A stretch of 64,000 nt of DNA from positions 310,001-374,000 of the forward strand of contig JAEUKH010000029.1 of the NCBI GenBank assembly GCA_016792845.1, read 5' to 3'. Within the stretch, counting starts at the first letter, position 1, and every line of letters starts with the position of its first letter. The translations under genes were made by a program, and so were the position numbers. This document shows positions 54,399 to 63,923 of the stretch, piece by piece. The notes under the pieces were generated by a model. It saw nothing but the letters and a program-made list of their open reading frames with translations. It ran no database searches and had not been told where the DNA came from. Source of the DNA: Myxococcales bacterium (GTDB taxonomy: Bacteria; Myxococcota_A; Polyangia; Polyangiales; Ga0077539).

Positions 54399-55766
54399 TC
54401 AGGCCGCGGCGGGCGCCGCCGGAGGGGCGTCTTTCTTCGAGATCCAATTGCGGGTGAAGAAGATGCTCACGGGGCCTACGAGGGTCACCGCGCCGATGAT
54501 GCCCCAAAGGAGCGCCGGGTTACGCGGGCCCGTCTCTGGGCAAAACTGCGCGAGGAGGTACCCCGCCGTCGGGCCCACGATCAGCTTGGCAAAGAAGTAC
54601 GGCAGCGAGGCCAGACTGACATAGGTCGCCTCGCGCCCGGGCGGCGCGATCGAGAGGTTGTATTCATACAACCGCGGCGACCAGAGCGCCTCGCCGAGGG
54701 TCAGCACTACGATCATCGCGATTTGAAAGTACATGCTTGAACCAAAGCACAGCACGAAGGGCGACGCCGCCGTGAGGAAGGCGCCCACCATCAGCACGTC
54801 GATCGAGCGCATCTTGCGCGTCAGCGCCGTCGCGAGCGGCGCGAGCCCCAAGATCAAGAACGAGTTGATCGACCAGACCGTCCCTACGGGGAAGGTCTCG
54901 CCGTTGACCCGGGTGACGTACGAGGGCCAGGTGAAGTGCATGTGCTGAAAGATCAGCTTGACGAGAGAGAGCAGCACCAAGAGAAACATGAAGCGCCAGA
55001 ATGCCTTGTCGACGAGCACTTCTTTGAGCACCATGAGCGGGTTCGGCTTCTTCGCGCCGGGCTCGGCGGTGTCTTTCAGGTGGCCAAACTCTCGGGGGAT
55101 GAACAGCACCAGCACCGAGGCCACCACCGCGAAGACAAAGCCCGCACCCAGGATGGCCTGATACGCCGACATCTCGTGGGTGCCGAGGAGCGGCAGCGCC
55201 ACGGGCTTGTGCACCAGCTGATGGGTGACCGGGTCGCGAAAGTGGGCCCGGAGACCGTCGATGATGGGGCCGACGAGCACCCCGGCGAGGTTGAAGCTGA
55301 CATACCAGAGCGAGAAGGCGAAGGCCCTCGCGTTCTTGGTCACGGCGCGCTGCACCGCGGTCTGGAGCACCGGCGAGGTGGTCGCGTAGGCGAAGCCGAA
55401 GCACAACAAGGCCACAATGGCCGTCGTCTGGCTGTGGGCGAGCGACATGCCGAGCCGCGTGAGCGCCGCCAAGGCGAACGACAGGATCAACATGCGCCGC
55501 ACGCCGACGCTGTCGCTGAGCGGGCCTACGATGAAGACAAAGGCCGTCAAGAGGGTCGAGAAGGTGGCCGCCCACCAGCCGGCCCGCTGATCGGTCATGC
55601 CGTGGTCTTTCGACAACCAGAATTTGAGCGTCGAAAGGAATGAGAAGATGCCAAGGTACTCAAAGAAGGTCGCGGCATAGATGAGCCAGATGACCTTCGA
55701 CCCACGGATCAACTCGAAAAAGTCGTCTTTGAAGCTCGTCTTCGGCGTCTCGTCGGTGGCACTCAC
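54399..55766 (-). CDS. MFS transporter
   Basis: A 455-residue major facilitator. It opens with a short cytoplasmic N-terminus (SATDETPKTSFKDDFF) and 12 predicted membrane helices. The loop 2-3 motif is GPLSDSVGVRRMLIL near 82-96. The sequence around TSPVLQTAVQRAVTKNARAFAFSLWYVSFNLAGVLVGPIIDGLR recalls peptide or POT-like symporters, but the family is not certain. Start GTG. It lies 43 bases after the desaturase on the same strand and could be the last gene of the lipid-type left arm, or a separate unit. Confidence 0.78.
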   Translation of the reverse strand: MSATDETPKTSFKDDFFELIRGSKVIWLIYAATFFEYLGIFSFLSTLKFWLSKDHGMTDQRAGWWAATFSTLLTAFVFIVGPLSDSVGVRRMLILSFALAALTRLGMSLAHSQTTAIVALLCFGFAYATTSPVLQTAVQRAVTKNARAFAFSLWYVSFNLAGVLVGPIIDGLRAHFRDPVTHQLVHKPVALPLLGTHEMSAYQAILGAGFVFAVVASVLVLFIPREFGHLKDTAEPGAKKPNPLMVLKEVLVDKAFWRFMFLLVLLSLVKLIFQHMHFTWPSYVTRVNGETFPVGTVWSINSFLILGLAPLATALTRKMRSIDVLMVGAFLTAASPFVLCFGSSMYFQIAMIVVLTLGEALWSPRLYEYNLSIAPPGREATYVSLASLPYFFAKLIVGPTAGYLLAQFCPETGPRNPALLWGIIGAVTLVGPVSIFFTRNWISKKDAPPAAPAAA

Positions 55767-55809: not shown

Positions 55810-56874
55810 CTAAGCCCCCCCGGTAGAATCGCGCCCCCTCGCAGCGGCGCGCGTCTCGGGCGGTCGCGCAGGGCCCGCGGAGGCTTCGGCGGTCGACGGC
55901 GCGAAGTCTGGCTGTTGGGTTCGAAAGTGCGCCCAATCGCGGCGCCGAAGCAACCGGTACAGACCGTGCCGAAGCGAGAGGTCTTTACGGCGAAACCAGA
56001 GACCGACCATCAACACCAGGGCGGGCACCCGCGGGTCGCGGTGATGCAACGCGTGATGCCCGATGCCAAAAGAGAGCGGCGCCGAATAGGTGTTGGCGAG
56101 GGCGCCGCGGTAGTGACCGAAGTGCTCGACCCAAAGCCGGTTGGCGTTGACGAAATTGAGCCAGAAGAGCACCAGGAGCCAGTACGTCACCGGGGGGCGA
56201 AAGAGGAGCGCGGCGCAGAGGGCCACGCCCCAGGCGAGCGCCGCCTGAAGACGACGCACGGGCACGCGCTCAGCCAGCCGATCGACGTTGTTCAAGATCG
56301 GGATGAGCTCATACACGACATACAACACCCGGGCGCGCTGCGAGAGCTTGTCTCGAAACGCCGTCCAATTGTTGTCGTGCGCGGTGTTGACCCACCGATG
56401 GTGGACGCGATGGGTGTGCTGATAGCGCTCTGCGAGAAAGGGCAGAAAGAGCAACCCTAGCGCGATGTTGCCGAGGCTCCGATCGAAGCGATTCTGTAAG
56501 ATGTTGTGATGGGTCGCCTCGTGTACAACCAGAATGAAGAGCCCGTGCACGACGAAGCCTGCGAAGAATGGCACGAGGGCCCACCCTGTCGCCGCCGCGA
56601 AGCCCCCCCGCGCGCTGAGCGCCGCGACGAGCCGCGGGCCGAGACCCCAGACGAGCGAGACCCCGAGCCCAAAGATGAGCAACATGGCGGCCGCGAGGGC
56701 GGCCCGGTGGGGGGCGAGGTCGGCCACGAGCCGGGCTTCGAGGGTGAGCTCGCCGGGCGCGGGTGACTCAAGGTCGAGGCGCGCCCAGACCCGCTCGGCG
56801 TCGAGCGCGGGGTGGCGTCGCTGGTACCAACGAAAGAGCCGTTGCGCCGCGCGCGATGGGGCCTCGGCGCTCAT
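55810..56874 (-). CDS. membrane fatty acid desaturase family protein
   Basis: A 354-residue integral-membrane di-iron enzyme. Three histidine boxes are present: HEATHH (118-123), HTHRVHH (153-159) and HHALHH (273-278), and an extra HFGHY near 251-255. Hydrophobic stretches separate them. Such enzymes insert double bonds or hydroxyl groups in acyl chains or carotenoids. The N-terminal ~55 residues are soluble and end with EARLVADLAPHR; the C-terminal tail is Arg/Ala/Pro-rich. The ATG overlaps the stop of the MBL gene (ATGA), tying it to the lipid cluster. Confidence 0.87.
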   Translation of the reverse strand: MSAEAPSRAAQRLFRWYQRRHPALDAERVWARLDLESPAPGELTLEARLVADLAPHRAALAAAMLLIFGLGVSLVWGLGPRLVAALSARGGFAAATGWALVPFFAGFVVHGLFILVVHEATHHNILQNRFDRSLGNIALGLLFLPFLAERYQHTHRVHHRWVNTAHDNNWTAFRDKLSQRARVLYVVYELIPILNNVDRLAERVPVRRLQAALAWGVALCAALLFRPPVTYWLLVLFWLNFVNANRLWVEHFGHYRGALANTYSAPLSFGIGHHALHHRDPRVPALVLMVGLWFRRKDLSLRHGLYRLLRRRDWAHFRTQQPDFAPSTAEASAGPARPPETRAAARGRDSTGGA

Positions 56875-57704
56875 GCGCAGGCGCTCAAGCGAAAGCGACA
56901 GTGGCTGGGGATGATGTCGAGCGCAGGGTCGGCCTGGCTCAGGCGATGGAGCCCCGCGAGGGTGGTGCGAGCCTGCGAGGGTGCGTCCATGATGAGGCCC
57001 GCGAGCGGGTGAGAGGGGCGGTTGTCTTTAAACGAAGCGGTGGTCCACGCGGCGTCGGCGACGAGCAGGTGGCGCCTGCCTTCGGCGCCCTGAATCAGGG
57101 CGCCCAGCTGACCGGCTGCGTGCCCCGGCAGCCCGATGAGGGTCACCGAGCGATCGCCGAAGAGGTCGAAGCCGCGGTGAAACTCACCCACACCCTGCGC
57201 GTTGAAGTCTCGCGCTTCAATGAAGTCAACGCGCGCCAGGAAATCATCGGGGAGCAAACCCGGGAGAAAGCCCCTCACGAGCTGCGCAAAGGCCGAGCCC
57301 GCCGAGACCGACGCATACGCCTCGCGGCTCGCGACAAAGCGCGCCTCTGTGAAGTCACGGGCCCCGGCGATGTGGTCGGCGTGAAAGTGTGACAGCACCA
57401 CGCGCCTGACCTCGCGGGGGTCGACGCCCCGCGCACGAAGCTGCGCCGCGGCGCTCGTACGGGGGCCCAAGGTCACGGGGGTCAGCCAGCGGTAGAGCCT
57501 CGCCGGGAAGGGTGAAGTCTCTCGCAAAAATGCTTCAGCATAGCCAGTGTCGTAGAGGGTGAGGCCCTCGCGCGGGTGCTCGATGAGCGCATACATCGCG
57601 GGGAACGAGGCCGCCCGCCACGGCGCATGGCGTAGCACCATGCCCTCAGGATGTTGGCACGCGCCGGCGACCCCCAGCGTGAGCGTCACGCGACCTTCAC
57701 TCAT
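56871..57704 (-). CDS. metallo-beta-lactamase-fold hydrolase, lactonase-like
   Basis: A 277-residue enzyme with the full set of MBL metal ligands: HFHADH (His106, His108, Asp110, His111), His195 in GLPGHAAGQ, Asp217 in VADAAW and His268 in IPSHC. The arrangement, including the short HADHIAGARDF block, resembles N-acyl-homoserine lactonases and related hydrolases. It has no signal peptide. It lies between the OleD-like and desaturase genes with ATGA overlaps at both ends. No OleB is encoded in the window, so it may take that place or open a lactone; this is inference. Confidence 0.88.
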   Translation of the reverse strand: MSEGRVTLTLGVAGACQHPEGMVLRHAPWRAASFPAMYALIEHPREGLTLYDTGYAEAFLRETSPFPARLYRWLTPVTLGPRTSAAAQLRARGVDPREVRRVVLSHFHADHIAGARDFTEARFVASREAYASVSAGSAFAQLVRGFLPGLLPDDFLARVDFIEARDFNAQGVGEFHRGFDLFGDRSVTLIGLPGHAAGQLGALIQGAEGRRHLLVADAAWTTASFKDNRPSHPLAGLIMDAPSQARTTLAGLHRLSQADPALDIIPSHCRFRLSACA

Positions 57705-58696
57705 GTGACAACCTTACCTTGTTGATTGAACCAGTCGATGGTGCGCGCGAGCCCGTCGCCCAGGTTGACCTCAGGGCGGTACCCGAGCTGAGCCTGGGCC
57801 TTCGAGATGTTTACGGTCTGCGAGCGCGCCAAGATTGACACGGTGTAGGGCGTCAGCGGCGGCTCGCCGAGGGCGGTGACCCGCTCGGCCAAGGCCTCGT
57901 AGAGGGCCGCCGCCCGCAAGGCCACGGCGTAGGGCACGCGGCCCCGAGGGAGCGGCGCCCCGACCCCGCGCAGGCACTCGGTCAAGAAGGGCCAGAGGGC
58001 CACCGGAGCGCCGTTTGAGATGAAGTAACACTGACCGTGGGCGGCCTCGGCCTCTGCGGCGCGCAGGAGGGCCGCGGCGCAGTTGTCGACATAGGTGATG
58101 TCTTGAATGTTTTGCCCATCGCCGATGACCCGCAATCGGCCCGAGCGCGCCCGCGCGACGAGCCGTGGCAAGATCGACGTGTCGCCGGGCCCGAACACCC
58201 CGCGCGGCCGAACGATGCACCACTCGACACCGCCCGCGGCGCGGACGACGGCCTCGGCGAGGGCCTTGCTCTCACAATACGCCGCGAGATAACGGCGCGG
58301 CAGCGGTGAAGACTCATCGAGGTCGAACCCGTCGCGGTCGCCGAAGGCCACGCTCGCCGACGAGCAATGCACCACACGCCGCACCCGCGCTTGGGTCGCC
58401 GCGGTGATGACATGCCGGGTGCCCACCACATTGACCTCAAAGAAGTCTCGGCGGAGCCCCCACGGGCTGCTGAGCGCGGCCACATGAATCACAGCGTCGA
58501 CGTCGTTGAAGGCGAGGCCGAGCCCCGCGCGGTCAGAGAGCGCCACGGGCCAGCGGGTGCAGCGGGCTGAGTCGAGATGAAAGCCCGAGAAGTTACGACC
58601 CAGGGCCCGCACCGAGTAGCCCGCCGCGAGGGCCATTTCGCACAACCGTTTGCCCACAAAGCCCGTGGCGCCGGTGATGGCAAGGGTGGGCCTCAC
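57701..58696 (-). CDS. OleD-like NAD(P)-dependent reductase
   Basis: An extended SDR of the 3-beta-HSD/epimerase type, 331 residues. It has the nucleotide loop GATGFVG (9-15), the DAVIHVAALSSPWG segment, a Ser/Tyr/Lys triad with CSSAS near 111-115 and YCESK (Tyr140, Lys144), then RPRGVFGPGDTSILPRLVARA, YVDNCAAALLRAA, HGQCYFISNGAP and a C-terminal LGYRPEVNLGDGL. This matches OleD, which reduces a 2-alkyl-3-keto acid to the 3-hydroxy acid in head-to-head fatty-acid condensation. The GTG start overlaps the stop of the ligase gene (GTGA). Other 3-beta-HSD roles remain possible. Confidence 0.85.
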   Translation of the reverse strand: MRPTLAITGATGFVGKRLCEMALAAGYSVRALGRNFSGFHLDSARCTRWPVALSDRAGLGLAFNDVDAVIHVAALSSPWGLRRDFFEVNVVGTRHVITAATQARVRRVVHCSSASVAFGDRDGFDLDESSPLPRRYLAAYCESKALAEAVVRAAGGVEWCIVRPRGVFGPGDTSILPRLVARARSGRLRVIGDGQNIQDITYVDNCAAALLRAAEAEAAHGQCYFISNGAPVALWPFLTECLRGVGAPLPRGRVPYAVALRAAALYEALAERVTALGEPPLTPYTVSILARSQTVNISKAQAQLGYRPEVNLGDGLARTIDWFNQQGKVVT

Positions 58697-60330
58697 GAGA
58701 GCCTCTTGGCCGCCCAGGCCGCGAGGGTGTGCCGCAAGATCTTCGCGCGATGCCGCACATCGAGCGGAATGGCCGGGTGAATCAGAAAGTCTTCAATCAT
58801 CGCCGTCTCTCGGTGAACGCGGGCCCGCGCACGGAGCGCTGAGACGATCGCCGCCCGGGCTTGCGCGGCGCCGACGCGGTACCCCGGCTCAAGCTCGACC
58901 ACGACGACGGGTCGCTGCCGAGGCCGACCCCCGACCCCCACCAGGGCCGCCCGCGCCACCCCCGGAACGCCCTCAAAATGGCGCTCGATCACCGCGGTGT
59001 AGAGAACGCCCTCGGGCGTCTCGACGCGCTCGGATTTTCGCCCGCAGAACCAGAATCGCCCTTCAGCGTCGCGGCACCCGAGGTCGCCCATGCGATGCCA
59101 CCGCGTCGGTCGGCACTCGATCTTGCTGAGCCGCTCGGCCTCGGGCTGATCGAAATACCCCGGCGTCACCACCGGGCCCGCGATCACCAGCTCGCCGACC
59201 TCGCCGTGATCGAGCTGCATGGCCCGCGGATCACCCGTCATGGGCCCATCGGCGCAGGGCACGACCACCATCTCGACCCCTTGAAGCACCGTGCCGAGGT
59301 AGGTGCCTCGCCCCGGGTTGGCGTGCCACTCAGGCCCTCGGGCGCGGGTCAAGGGCATCGCCTCGGTGGCGCCGTACGAGACAAAGACCGCGGCGCCTTC
59401 GGGGAGAAAGCGCTCAAACTGCGAGACATGTCGCGTCGAAATCGGAGCACCCCCCGTCAGGAGGAGCCGAAGCGCGCTCGCGCCGAGCCGCGCGACATTC
59501 GAGGCCCCGGCGATGCGCTGCCAGCTCGTCGGCGCCGCAAAGGCGAAGCTCACCCGGTGCGTGACCAGCACGTCGATCACGCGCTCGGCGTCAAAGGCCG
59601 TCGGGCGCGTCGGGTCGATCGGCGCCAACACCGTCGTGCACCCGAGCGGCGGCCCCAACAACGCGAAGATCGCCAGCATCGCCAGCTGAACGTCGCGCGC
59701 CTCAATCGACAAGAGACCCCCGAGCGCAGACACCTGCGCCGACAAGACGCCGTGGCTGAAACACACGCCCTTCGAGGCCCCCGTGCTGCCACTCGTAAAC
59801 GCGATCAACGCGAGCGTGTCAGGCGTCACCGACGCAGGGGCCGCGAGGGGTTGCGCTGAACGAAGAATCGACTTGAGGTCGTGGTGGCCCAGGAGCGGCT
59901 CATTGCTCACTAGAATGCTGATTGTTGGCAAGAGATGTCGTGTCAAAAAAACAGACATGACCGCTGCTGAGACACCGATGAGCGCGCGGGCTGCGGTCGA
60001 CCTGGCGCATCGGAGGCCCTGACGGAGGCCCAAGCCAGGGTCAATGAACACCGGCACCGCCCCGAGGAGGAGCAGCGCATACGACACTGAAACCCATTCG
60101 ATGCAGGGCTTCAGCAGCACGATGACGCGATCACCCTGGCGGAGCCCGAGGCTGCGCAGCGCGTCTGCGTAGCGCCTCGCGAGGGTCGCGACCCCTTCGA
60201 AGCCGAGCGAACACCCGTTTGTCGGGTCAACCAGGCAGGGCTGGTCGCCCCGCACGGCGGCCATCGATAGCAAAAGATTTGAGGCGTTATGCTCAGGCCC
60301 AGGCGTTACCTCGGCGCTGGGGTCTTGCAT
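58693..60330 (-). CDS. OleC-like acyl-AMP ligase / beta-lactone synthetase
   Basis: An ANL-superfamily enzyme of about 545 residues. Motifs in order: LLLGAVPVFIDPGLGLRQGL near 100-120, the ATP loop FTSGSTGASKGVCFSHG, IFALLGPPLGCTTVLAPIDPTRP, VSYGATEAMPLTRA, MGDLGCRDAEGRFWFCGRKSERVETPEGVLYTAVIERHFEGVPGV. The FIDPGLGLR and FCGRKxxRVET blocks are typical of OleC, which uses ATP to close 3-hydroxy acids into cis-beta-lactones. The catalytic lysine near the C-terminus is not obvious. The ATG at 60330 gives the domain start; open frame continues 438 bases upstream but is Pro/Arg-rich and overlaps the divergent gene. It leads the left arm of the bidirectional lipid cluster. Confidence 0.82.
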   Translation of the reverse strand: MQDPSAEVTPGPEHNASNLLLSMAAVRGDQPCLVDPTNGCSLGFEGVATLARRYADALRSLGLRQGDRVIVLLKPCIEWVSVSYALLLLGAVPVFIDPGLGLRQGLRCARSTAARALIGVSAAVMSVFLTRHLLPTISILVSNEPLLGHHDLKSILRSAQPLAAPASVTPDTLALIAFTSGSTGASKGVCFSHGVLSAQVSALGGLLSIEARDVQLAMLAIFALLGPPLGCTTVLAPIDPTRPTAFDAERVIDVLVTHRVSFAFAAPTSWQRIAGASNVARLGASALRLLLTGGAPISTRHVSQFERFLPEGAAVFVSYGATEAMPLTRARGPEWHANPGRGTYLGTVLQGVEMVVVPCADGPMTGDPRAMQLDHGEVGELVIAGPVVTPGYFDQPEAERLSKIECRPTRWHRMGDLGCRDAEGRFWFCGRKSERVETPEGVLYTAVIERHFEGVPGVARAALVGVGGRPRQRPVVVVELEPGYRVGAAQARAAIVSALRARARVHRETAMIEDFLIHPAIPLDVRHRAKILRHTLAAWAAKRLS

Positions 60331-60398
60331 CGTAGATTCGTTTATGGCATCTTTCTGTCTCGCCCGCAAGTCTAACAAAGGGGCAGAGGGGTGTTCTG
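60331..60398. promoter_or_regulatory. bidirectional promoter region of the lipid cluster
   Basis: A 68-base gap between the divergent ligase and ketosynthase genes. It holds the ribosome-binding sequence GGGGCAGAGGGG for the right gene and AT-richer bits (gtagattcgtttatggcatc and tctaacaaagg). Leftward, TTGCGG and CATAAA 17 bases apart could be a weak promoter; this is uncertain. Both arms must be started from here. Confidence 0.45.
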
Positions 60399-61418
60399 AT
60401 GGGGGCTGCGTCGAAGCCGTTGGTGAGCCGTCGGGTGAAGGTTGCGGGGCTCGGCAAGTATTTGCCCGAGCGGGTGATCGCGAGCGCCGCGCTCGAAGCC
60501 GAGTTGGGGCTTGAGCCTGGCTGGGTCGAGCGGGTGACGGGGGTGCGCGAGCGGCGGCGCAAGGGGCCCGACGAGACGCAGGCGAGCATGGGGGCTCAGG
60601 CGGTGTTGGCCGCGTTGGCCGATGCGGGGTGCTCGCTCGATGACGTTGATTTGATCGTGTGCGGCTCGGGGCTGAGCCAGCAGGCGATTCCGTGTACGGC
60701 GGTGTTGCTTCAGCAGGCCTTGGGGCTCGCGGCGAGGGGGGTGCCGTGTTTCGATGTGAACAGCACATGCTTGAGCTTTGTTCACGCGCTCGACGTGGTG
60801 GGCGACCTCGTCGCGCGGGGCAGCTACCGCTGTGCCGTGGTGGTCTCGACCGAGGCGACCTCGGTCGGGCTGAACTGGTCAGAGCACGAGAGCGCGGTGC
60901 TCTTCGGTGATGGGGCCGCGGCGGCGGTGCTGGTGCCGACCCCCGAGGGCGAGCCGAGCCTGCTCTTTGAAGGCTGCTTTACCACCGACTCGCGCGGCGC
61001 CGCCCTCGCCGAGGTGAAGGGTTGCGGCACCGCCTGGCCGCCCTCAGACCCGGCGACTCCGCGCGAATACGCGCTCTTTCATATGCAGGGTACCCGCATC
61101 TTTCGTCACGCCATGAAACAGAGCGTCGGCTTCTTTACTGAGTATTCGACGCGTCTGCCCTTCGCGCTTGAGGCCTTTGCGGCGCTCTGCCCGCATCAGG
61201 CGAGCCTCGTCGCGATGCGGCTCACGGCGCGGGCCTGCGGCTTTCGCCAAGATCAGCTCGTTGAGAACATCGAGACCCACGGCAATTGTGTGTCTGCGTC
61301 GATCCCCATGGTGCTCCATGATGGGGTCCGCGGGGGGCGCATCCGTCGAGGCGATCGGGTGCTCCTCGCGGGCACCGCGGCGGGGCTCTCGGTGGGCGCG
61401 CTGGCGATGGTGTATTGA
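60399..61418 (+). CDS. OleA/FabH-like ketosynthase III
   Basis: A 339-residue thiolase-fold enzyme. The triad is Cys124 in DVNSTCLSFVHALD, His266 in ALCPHQASL and Asn296 in IETHGNCVSASIP, the C-H-N set of FabH and OleA. It starts VSRRVKVAGLGKYLPERVI, has the ALxxAGxxxxDVDLIVxGS block near 72-91 and a FGDGAAAAVL loop near 169-178. In its context with OleC- and OleD-like genes it should join two acyl-CoA chains head to head, but FabH-type acetyl-CoA/malonyl-ACP condensation is not excluded. The ATG follows GGGGCAGAGGGG. First gene of the right arm. Confidence 0.87.
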   Translation: MGAASKPLVSRRVKVAGLGKYLPERVIASAALEAELGLEPGWVERVTGVRERRRKGPDETQASMGAQAVLAALADAGCSLDDVDLIVCGSGLSQQAIPCTAVLLQQALGLAARGVPCFDVNSTCLSFVHALDVVGDLVARGSYRCAVVVSTEATSVGLNWSEHESAVLFGDGAAAAVLVPTPEGEPSLLFEGCFTTDSRGAALAEVKGCGTAWPPSDPATPREYALFHMQGTRIFRHAMKQSVGFFTEYSTRLPFALEAFAALCPHQASLVAMRLTARACGFRQDQLVENIETHGNCVSASIPMVLHDGVRGGRIRRGDRVLLAGTAAGLSVGALAMVY

Positions 61419-62041
61419 TGTCGCGCTTCGCTCACGTCTGGCGCAACGCGCGTTGGGTCTTGCCCTTCGCGGTGGTCAACAGCAGCATCTATTACTGGCT
61501 CAATCAGCATCCGTTGCGGGCGCCGCGAGAGCTTCCGTTGACGGCGATCGACCGCGCGGTGCCCTTCGTGCCGCTGACGCTCTGGCCCTACCTGATCTTG
61601 ATGTTGCCCGATCTGGTCTTGCCCCTGGCCTTGCGGGCGCGCGAAATCTTTCGCGACACCCTCATCGCCTATGTCATCGCCATCGCCTCGAACATGACCA
61701 TTTGGAGCCTCTGGCCGACGGTGTATCCGCGGCCCGCGGCGCCCAGCGGCGACGACCTCACGTCGGTGTGCTTTCGCATCATGGTCGAGGTCGACTCGCC
61801 CGCGAACTGCTTCCCCTCTGGGCACATTACCATCCCCGCGGTGGCGTGTTGGGGCCTCGCCCGAGAGCACCCGAAGCATCGCGGGCTCATCTGGGCGACG
61901 CTGCTGCTCTTCTCGGTCACGGTGTTGACCACCAAGCAACATTACTTCGTTGATATCCTCGGCGGCTTCGGCACGGCGTTCTGGGGCATCTTCTGGTCAA
62001 AGCAGATCGCACGTCGCTTGCGGCCTGGCGAGGTCGTGTGA
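61418..62041 (+). CDS. PAP2 family membrane phosphatase
   Basis: A 207-residue membrane protein with five or six hydrophobic helices. The PAP2 motifs 2 and 3 are visible: CFPSGHITIPAV near 128-139, and TVLTTKQHYFVDILGG near 167-182. Motif 1 (KXXXXXXRP) is not clear, as in the inositol-phosphoceramide-synthase-like branch. It should dephosphorylate or transfer head groups of a lipid phosphate. The ATG overlaps the ketosynthase stop (TGATG), so it belongs to the cluster. Confidence 0.82.
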   Translation: MSRFAHVWRNARWVLPFAVVNSSIYYWLNQHPLRAPRELPLTAIDRAVPFVPLTLWPYLILMLPDLVLPLALRAREIFRDTLIAYVIAIASNMTIWSLWPTVYPRPAAPSGDDLTSVCFRIMVEVDSPANCFPSGHITIPAVACWGLAREHPKHRGLIWATLLLFSVTVLTTKQHYFVDILGGFGTAFWGIFWSKQIARRLRPGEVV

Positions 62042-63255
62042 TGTTGAGCCTCTTCGGGGTTGCGCTGCGTAACATCGTTCGGAGCCCTCGGCGCTCGCTG
62101 CTGGTGTCGCTCGCGGTGATCGGCGGCTGCGCGGCGCTGGTGTTCATGCTCTCAATGAACAACGGGCTCGCGCAGATGATGGTGACCAACTCGGTGGGCC
62201 TGATGCTCGGTCACGTCCAGGTCGACGCGCCGGGGGCGAGGGGGTGGGTCAGCGCGGGGCCGGTGCTCGCCGCCGCGGCCGAAGATGCTGCGGTTCGGGG
62301 GGCGGCTCCGCGCCTCGACCTGCCGGTGTTGATGGGGCAGGGGGCGTCGCGTCGCGGCGCCTTGGTGCTGGGCGTCGTGCGGGGGCACGAAGCGGCGACG
62401 AGCACCTTTCCGTCGTTGGTGACCCGGGGGCGCATTCCGGGGCCCGATGAGGGCGACGCGGTGGCCTTGGGGGTCGACCTCGCGCGGTCGCTCGGGGTCA
62501 CGGTGGGGGCCGACGTCTCGCTCGTGTACTTTGACGCCGGCGAGCGGCTTCGCCCGACGACGCTCAGGGTGGTGGGCCTTGTCAGAGCGGGGTCTGAAGA
62601 CCTCGACGATCGGCTCGCCCTGGTGCCCCTGGCCACGGTTCAAGGGTGGCTCTCGCTCGACCCTGGGCTCGCGCGTCGGGTGGTGCTCCGCGCGCGAGAG
62701 AATCGTGACACCGAGGCTGTGGCGGGTCGGCTCCGCGCGCGGCTCGGGCCTGGGGCGCGGGTCCGCACCTGGGGTGAGGTTTCGCCGTTTCTTCAGGCGA
62801 TGGTCAACTTTCAACACGGCAGCGCCAACGTGGTGTTGATGTTTCTTTACATCGTGGTCGGCGCCGGGGTGGCCGCGATTCAATTGATGAGCATTCTCGA
62901 ACGCACGAGAGAGCTCGGCGTGCTGGCTTCGATCGGCTTCTCGCCGCGCCGCGTGGTGGCCCTGGTGGCGCTCGAGACGCTCTTGCTCGGCAGCCTCGCG
63001 GTGGCCTGCGGCCTCGGGCTCGGGTACGCGCTGGTGACCCTGGTGGGGCGGCTCGGCGGCATCGATGTTCGGGTCGCCGGCGGGGTCGGTCTTGAGGGGC
63101 TCGTCGGGATGGACCCGCACCTCGTTCCGGTCTTTTCACGCAAGGTCTTCGCGTACACCGCGGGCGTGGTGGGGCCGGTGTTGTTGTTGGGGGGCGTGCT
63201 CCCGGGCCTGAGGGCCGCGCGCATGACCCCGATGGAGGCCCTGCGTCGACCATGA
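62041..63255 (+). CDS. FtsX/LolC/MacB-type ABC transporter permease
   Basis: A 404-residue permease with one N-terminal helix (SLLVSLAVIGGCAALVFML), a large periplasmic domain (~45-255) and three C-terminal helices near 265-290, 310-340 and 370-395, the FtsX/LolCE layout. The coupling-type segment LERTRELGVLASIGFSPRRVVALVALE is conserved. The proteins move lipoproteins or lipids from the inner membrane outward. The ATG overlaps the PAP2 stop; a GTG one codon earlier is possible. Its ATPase is encoded by the next gene. Confidence 0.9.
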   Translation: MLSLFGVALRNIVRSPRRSLLVSLAVIGGCAALVFMLSMNNGLAQMMVTNSVGLMLGHVQVDAPGARGWVSAGPVLAAAAEDAAVRGAAPRLDLPVLMGQGASRRGALVLGVVRGHEAATSTFPSLVTRGRIPGPDEGDAVALGVDLARSLGVTVGADVSLVYFDAGERLRPTTLRVVGLVRAGSEDLDDRLALVPLATVQGWLSLDPGLARRVVLRARENRDTEAVAGRLRARLGPGARVRTWGEVSPFLQAMVNFQHGSANVVLMFLYIVVGAGVAAIQLMSILERTRELGVLASIGFSPRRVVALVALETLLLGSLAVACGLGLGYALVTLVGRLGGIDVRVAGGVGLEGLVGMDPHLVPVFSRKVFAYTAGVVGPVLLLGGVLPGLRAARMTPMEALRRP

Positions 63256-63923
63256 AGTCTCTCCTCTCGGGTGAATCGTTGGTGCGCCGATACGGTGACG
63301 TGACGGCCCTCGGCGGGGTCTCTCTTGAGCTCGCGCGGGGCGAAATTCTGGCCCTCGGCGGGCCCTCGGGCTCGGGCAAGACCACCCTCCTGGCCATGCT
63401 GGGTGGGCTCGAAACCCCAACCGAGGGGCGCGTGATGCTCGACGGGTACGACCTCTATGCGCTGTCTCACGCCGTGCGCGCCCGGGTGCGAGGCGATCGC
63501 GTCGGCTTCGTGTTTCAGACCCACAATCTCTTGAGCACTCTCACGGCCGAAGAGAACGTGATGCTGGCCGTTCAGCACGGCCCCAATCCCACGGGCGATC
63601 CCCGCGCCCGCGCCCGAGAGAGCCTCGCGCTCTTGGGGGTGACGCATGAGGCGGGTCGACTCCCGCGGGCGCTCTCGCTCGGGCAGCAGCAGCGCGTGGC
63701 CATCGCGCGGGCCTTGGCGGCTGGGCCTCCGGTCATCATCGCCGACGAGCCCACGGCCTCGCTCGACAGCCAGAGCGGGGCCGCCGTGCTCGACGCGCTG
63801 AAGCTCGCCGCGCAGCGCGGCTGTGCGGTGTTGCTCGCCACCCACGACCCGCGGTGCCTCGCGATCGCCTCGCGCGTCGTGACCCTCCGTGACGGCCGTT
63901 GCGAAGCGCCGCCTGCGGCGTAG
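63252..63923 (+). CDS. LolD/MacB-type ABC transporter ATPase
   Basis: A 223-residue ATPase with Walker A GGPSGSGKTT (36-45), a Q-loop in FVFQTHNLLSTLTAEENVML, the signature as LSLGQQQR (141-148), Walker B VIIADEP (161-167) and a switch His in LATHDP. The signature has Leu where Gly is usual (LSGGQ). The ATG overlaps the permease stop (ATGA). It powers the FtsX-type permease and lies at the end of the right arm; its stop is nine bases from a convergent gene. Confidence 0.92.
   Translation: MKSLLSGESLVRRYGDVTALGGVSLELARGEILALGGPSGSGKTTLLAMLGGLETPTEGRVMLDGYDLYALSHAVRARVRGDRVGFVFQTHNLLSTLTAEENVMLAVQHGPNPTGDPRARARESLALLGVTHEAGRLPRALSLGQQQRVAIARALAAGPPVIIADEPTASLDSQSGAAVLDALKLAAQRGCAVLLATHDPRCLAIASRVVTLRDGRCEAPPAA

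Follow-up and report, generated by a model that had tools for sequence, protein, structure and literature searches.

A divergent eight-gene cluster of a Myxococcales bacterium may make and export an envelope lipid from a ketosynthase-reductase-hydrolase core distinct from ole

What lipid pathway is encoded by a divergent cluster of eight genes in a 64,000-nucleotide stretch of a Myxococcales bacterium genome (contig JAEUKH010000029.1; "the window" denotes this whole stretch)? The cluster encodes a ketosynthase (KS), a short-chain dehydrogenase/reductase (SDR), a metallo-beta-lactamase-fold (MBL) hydrolase, an AMP-forming ligase, a desaturase-type enzyme, a PAP2-superfamily membrane protein, and an ATP-binding cassette (ABC) permease and ATPase, and was originally predicted to be an ole-like lipid system. 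On balance, it seems rather to be one functional island, built on a KS-SDR-MBL core that is not ole, which makes and exports an envelope lipid. The best reading of the product is a beta-hydroxy, possibly two-chain, envelope lipid. Because the enzymes belong to a family separate from ole, an olefin or a known beta-lactone is an unlikely product.

The KS-SDR-MBL core was found in many other bacteria. The MBL hydrolase was used as query against 84,980 species genomes; this gave 223 relatives, of which 80 were kept, and 84 loci were examined. Within 7 kb, the SDR was present in 81 and the KS in 78 of the 84 loci; the MBL count (84/84) is true by construction as the loci were retrieved through this gene, whereas the other two counts are not. 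With homologous KS, SDR, and MBL genes adjacent, which is the definition of the family set here, the window locus is a member. The core spans Bacillota, Pseudomonadota, Chloroflexota, and others, and its carriers include Paenibacillus, Gracilibacillus, Pseudomonas protegens, Shewanella, Luteimonas, Novosphingobium, Planctomycetota, and Chloroflexota (including Anaerolineae). It is rare in the order of the window, where only G017 and G029 among 36 relatives carry it. The accompanying genes among the 84 loci were ATP-grasp (61 loci), F390-synthetase-like (46), OleC-like ligase (23), and GNAT-like (36) genes. Arrays such as L019, L022, L024, L025, L040, L042, L058, L093, and others combine the core with ATP-grasp (PRK06849), F390-synthetase-related (TIGR02304), and GNAT genes. 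No description of the family was found in the open-access papers searched, and it is apparently a widespread and undescribed enzyme family separate from ole.

Judged by sequence comparison, the window KS belongs to the MxnB/CorB class: it shares a clade with these enzymes, lacks the residue equivalent to OleA Glu117, and has the Cys-His-Asn triad. Its best family is PRK07204, named beta-ketoacyl-acyl carrier protein (ACP) synthase III (326 bits, below the NCBIfam cut-off of 402), and it misses the OleA family PRK09258/NF006720 (98-105 bits against a cut-off of 285). Among solved structures, MxnB and CorB are the closest, and OleA is a far weaker match. In an alignment of 104 KS, the triad is conserved throughout, including the window KS, whose residue at the OleA Glu117 position is Ile (Ile-Pro). 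All 77 cluster relatives lack Glu at this position (Ile 65, Leu 5, Met 5, and Val 2), whereas Glu-Pro occurs in 9/9 OleA. A Glu-Pro at position 117 was previously reported in all but two of the OleA tested, and the Glu was called essential (PMC7064751). MxnB and CorB, for which the condensation of two acyl chains has been described (PMC5724707; PMC4578411), carry Val at this position and are proposed to need no such base, the nucleophilic carbon being between two carbonyls (PMC4578411).

The window KS is 33-48% identical to the aligned relatives and 24-31% identical to OleA. A 67-row tree joined the relatives with MxnB and CorB in one clade (support 98) and recovered OleA (99) and FabH (97) separately; in a careful 42-row tree, the clade containing MxnB and CorB was supported at 91/93 and the OleA clade, without the window KS, at 100/100. 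The approximately unbiased (AU) test did not reject a grouping of OleA with the window KS (p 0.36 and 0.35, the latter for OleA as sister to the window KS and L168 in the careful tree). The long OleA stem may thus attach next to the window KS, although the window KS is not inside the OleA clade. Its identification as OleA was ruled out by the missing Glu117, the score below the cut-off, and the position outside the OleA clade; the genome of the window has no OleA above the family cut-off.

The KS might instead use malonyl-ACP in the manner of FabH, without head-to-head joining, in which case the SDR would give a 3-hydroxy acid, from which the ligase and PAP2 protein would build a specialized single-chain lipid or glycerolipid. 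The name of PRK07204 and the intact triad are in keeping with this route, as is the hydrophobic residue at the Glu117 position, which is also found in most FabH, but the KS groups with MxnB/CorB and not with FabH, and the reductase that accompanies it belongs to the 2-alkyl-3-oxoalkanoate type and is not FabG. Such a route is considered unlikely.

The SDR and the ligase are kin of OleD and OleC but members of neither, because trees and AU tests place both outside the OleD and OleC branches. The SDR scored 235 bits against the OleD model, which requires 580, and fell in a clade of SDRs from KS-SDR-MBL clusters (98) that is sister to the OleD clade (95); grouping of the window SDR with OleD was rejected (AU p 0.0037). 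The ligase scored 435 bits against the OleC-like superfamily PRK09274 (cut-off 478), and 348 and 304 bits against OleC equivalog models with cut-offs of 900 and 850. In the tree, it falls in a group with the L148, L138, and L140 ligases (99) that lies outside the OleC branch, and its placement with the OleC-context branch was rejected (AU p 0.0041). The hydrolase has the metallo-beta-lactamase fold (Lactamase_B) and is not an alpha/beta hydrolase of the OleB kind; none of the latter was found among the cluster genes. It keeps the dinuclear metal ligands (HxHxDH, H195, D217, and H268), and the nearest solved folds to its model (pLDDT 95) are N-acyl homoserine lactone (AHL) lactonases, although the score against the AHL-lactonase equivalog AttM is only 81 bits, far below the cut-off of 390. 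A canonical ole locus in the order of the window (L120) reads oleA-oleB-oleC-oleD, with the alpha/beta-hydrolase OleB gene between oleA and oleC.

The original prediction regarded the KS, ligase, and SDR as OleA-, OleC-, and OleD-like enzymes that should fall within the respective branches, and for all three this placement was largely contradicted; a canonical ole locus was rejected on Glu117, family scores, trees, and the lack of OleB. What survives is a conserved unit for synthesis, tailoring, and export with an OleD-related reductase and an OleC-related ligase, which is not the OleA/C/D set. Among the products originally listed, the olefin and the beta-lactone lose most of their basis because the OleA/C/D identity is unsupported and OleB is absent, and a hydroxy-acid-type lipid is still possible. 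A true ole-type pathway, with OleA-like head-to-head condensation, reduction as by OleD, beta-lactone formation as by OleC, and the MBL hydrolase standing in for OleB to give a beta-lactone or its hydrolysis product, is rather improbable. Among named families, the SDR is nearest to OleD and the ligase nearest to OleC, the lactonase fold makes a lactone substrate plausible, and other oleACD clusters without oleB produce beta-lactones (PMC7064751). Against these points stand the KS evidence and the placements given above, as well as G017 and G029, each of which holds a canonical OleA locus plus a separate KS-SDR-MBL cluster.

The PAP2 family conserves the motifs NCFPS(G/A)H (including the form NCFPSGH) and TTKQHYxxD. 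A sequence search of the PAP2 protein against solved structures gave no match, and a Foldseek search with its predicted model (pLDDT 78) placed SMSr, inositol-phosphorylceramide (IPC) synthase, and Aur1 at the top (TM 0.60, 0.56, and 0.53), ahead of or beside phosphatases (0.47, 0.49, and 0.41 for 5jki, LpxE, and PgpB), with E values from 0.003 to 2 overall. This predicted fold hints at head-group transfer, no more. For the permease, the nearest solved structure is LolF, and the score against the LolCE equivalog is 80 bits, far below 362. The best family of the ATPase is DevA (199 bits), followed by LolD at 170 bits against an equivalog cut-off of 308. DevA is part of a heterocyst glycolipid exporter. 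The sole other match to the permease in its own genome is 26% identical; a housekeeping Lol identity was rejected on this ground, and the permease is, by sequence, a dedicated paralogue. A bolder proposal is a sphingolipid analogue made without serine palmitoyltransferase, in which a PAP2 protein resembling sphingomyelin synthase would put a phosphate head group on a two-chain, carbon-carbon-joined hydroxy lipid, and a dedicated exporter of the LolF type would carry the lipid to the outer membrane; this is improbable.

Conservation of the gene order in other genomes, which the original prediction had set as a test, was borne out: a betaproteobacterial metagenome-assembled genome (G408) repeats the order, and a distant class of the window's phylum shows part of it. 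With PAP2 as the marker for the full set, 379 genomes of the phylum were searched, and PAP2 was beside an OleC-like ligase and a KS in two, G079 and G124, both from one distant class. In G079 (L138), PAP2 and ligase genes lie beside the KS gene and a fusion of SDR and MBL in a single frame of 618 residues (L138:8825-10681, minus strand), with an MMPL exporter gene just upstream. The fused MBL half has HFDPDH in place of HFHADH, altering one metal ligand. A cupin/JmjC-like oxygenase-type gene (L138:2214-3227) is located directly upstream of the MMPL exporter.

G408 holds the complete eight-gene set over two contigs: the KS and PAP2 genes are neighbors at the end of C379, and C88 carries permease-ATPase-desaturase-ligase-SDR-MBL. 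Identities to the window are 53% (KS), 46% (PAP2), and 52% (SDR). The absent stretch amounts to about 24 residues of PAP2 and 121 residues of the permease, and we infer that the contigs join across a small assembly gap. Near its end, the MBL frame of G408 (L148:1304-2317) turns into an apparent LuxR-type helix-turn-helix tail, which may be an assembly chimera or a real recombination. No further carriers of the full set were found in 26 genomes of the order of G079 or in 300 of the order of G408, and in the order of the window, the PAP2 genes of G062, G023, and G046 have no cluster genes nearby. In another class, G107 and G265 encode PAP2 proteins of the same subfamily (46% identical; L139:9462-10043 and L141:2055-2630) by an aconitase-like gene, with no KS, SDR, or ligase alongside and with unrelated neighbors. 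That the arms are two independent operons (a hydroxy-acid unit on the minus strand and a KS-PAP2-ABC unit on the plus strand) with only the promoter region in common is very improbable: the arms diverge and most core relatives lack the PAP2 and ABC genes, yet the KS on one arm and the SDR and MBL on the other are co-located nearly everywhere, and in G408 the permease and ATPase share the contig and strand of desaturase-ligase-SDR-MBL.

All eight genes, the gap between the two leader genes, and the overlapping junctions were present as originally predicted, the junctions being checked directly (Table 1). Every junction within each of the two arms is a stop-start overlap, reading GTGA (ligase stop and reductase start), ATGA, and ATGA on the minus arm and TGATG, TGATG, and ATGA on the plus arm. 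Codon scoring recovered the same genes, with shorter starts for the ligase and hydrolase. The desaturase has three visible His boxes, and a sequence search against solved structures gave no meaningful match. An MFS transporter gene starts 43 bases past the desaturase on the same strand and may be a ninth member continuing the minus arm; it was not seen beside related clusters. A scan of 60250-60480 identified neither a sigma-70-like promoter nor a terminator, which carries little weight for this organism.

Table 1. Genes and intergenic region of the cluster, in window coordinates.
Feature	Position	Strand	Length	Basis
MFS transporter (cluster membership uncertain)	54399-55766	-		Pfam MFS_1 4.5e-35
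Fatty-acid desaturase/hydroxylase-type membrane enzyme	55810-56874	-	354 aa	Pfam FA_desaturase 4.9e-17
MBL hydrolase, AHL-lactonase-like	56871-57704	-	277 aa	Pfam Lactamase_B 2e-16
SDR reductase, OleD-like (GTG start)	57701-58696	-	331 aa	Pfam Epimerase/3Beta_HSD
AMP-forming ligase, OleC-like superfamily	58693-60330	-	545 aa	Pfam AMP-binding
Divergent intergenic region between the two leader genes	60331-60398		68 bases	Direct reading
KAS III-type KS, MxnB/CorB class	60399-61418	+	339 aa	Pfam KAS III
PAP2-superfamily membrane protein	61418-62041	+	207 aa	Pfam PAP2_3 1.9e-10
LolF/LolC/E-like ABC permease	62038 (or 62041 start)-63255	+	405 aa	Pfam MacB_PCD + FtsX
LolD/DevA-like ABC ATPase	63252-63923	+	223 aa	Pfam ABC_tran

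From the gene set, junctions, family placements, and conservation observed, we infer the reactions, their order, the product, and its destination as follows. The KS would condense an acyl thioester with another thioester that is already acidic (beta-ketoacyl or malonyl-type); the SDR would then reduce the resulting 3-keto, possibly 2-alkylated, acyl thioester to the 3-hydroxy compound. The lactonase-fold hydrolase may release the free hydroxy acid by hydrolyzing the thioester or a lactone, and the ligase could adenylate this acid for transfer or lactonization. The desaturase may modify a chain, the PAP2 protein may add or remove a phosphate-containing head group, and the LolF/LolD-type ABC unit would pull the product from the inner membrane toward the outer membrane. 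A single envelope-lipid island is consistent with the tight junctions, the core kept over many loci, the SDR-MBL fusion in L138, the full set in G408, the MMPL protein of L138 as another lipid-type exporter, the PAP2 and ligase genes beside the core in that locus, the presence of MxnB/CorB in the KS clade, DevA as the best ATPase family, and the permease being a dedicated paralogue.

Several points weigh against it. The window KS is without the Glu used by OleA and PpyS to deprotonate an ordinary acyl chain, and the cluster encodes no enzyme for a substrate with its carbon between two carbonyls, no ACP, and no polyketide synthase (PKS). OleA-like head-to-head joining is the least secure step, because the KS has lost the catalytic base and no gene nearby would supply a more acidic nucleophile. 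Most KS-SDR-MBL relatives have ATP-grasp, F390-synthetase-like, or GNAT genes and not PAP2 and an exporter, and therefore the product may vary. The G408 locus is fragmented, with KS and PAP2 read in one frame, the ATPase in two frames, and the MBL C-terminus lost, and may be degraded or mis-assembled. All trees are single-gene and of moderate depth.

The analysis sets a widespread KS-SDR-MBL cluster family apart from ole, with which annotation easily confuses its reductase and ligase, and in the window a rare version of the core goes together with genes for a head group and for export. Should the predicted lipid exist, it would be a new envelope lipid class with a dedicated export route, and it would become testable whether a KS of the MxnB class that lacks the glutamate of OleA can join two fatty chains outside a polyketide assembly line.

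Compared with known systems, the window cluster resembles the ole (oleABCD) and oleACD beta-lactone clusters in having a condensing enzyme, an extended-SDR reductase, and an AMP-ligase of related superfamilies in one cluster. It differs in the class of its KS, in an SDR and ligase outside the OleD and OleC branches, and in having an MBL hydrolase in the place of OleB together with PAP2, desaturase, and ABC exporter genes. With MxnB and CorB of the myxopyronin and corallopyronin pathways, the window KS shares a clade, a hydrophobic residue at the OleA Glu117 position, and the Cys-His-Asn triad. However, MxnB and CorB serve PKS assembly lines and form pyrones, whereas the window cluster is without a PKS and has a reductase, hydrolase, and ligase. 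The arrays in Paenibacillus, Pseudomonas protegens, Shewanella, and Anaerolineae likewise bring homologous KS, SDR, and MBL genes together over a short distance, but these have ATP-grasp genes together with either an F390-synthetase-like or an OleC-like ligase gene, and PAP2, desaturase, and the ABC pair were not found beside them. The sphingomyelin and IPC synthases (SMSr and Aur1) come closest to the predicted fold of the PAP2 protein, although the match is weak (Foldseek E 3e-3 to 0.07, identity 13-16%, and rmsd 6-8). Finally, LolF/LolD and DevBCA-type exporters also pair one LolC/E-like permease with a LolD/DevA-like ATPase, whereas the window pair is without a membrane-fusion partner and scores below the LolCE and LolD equivalogs.

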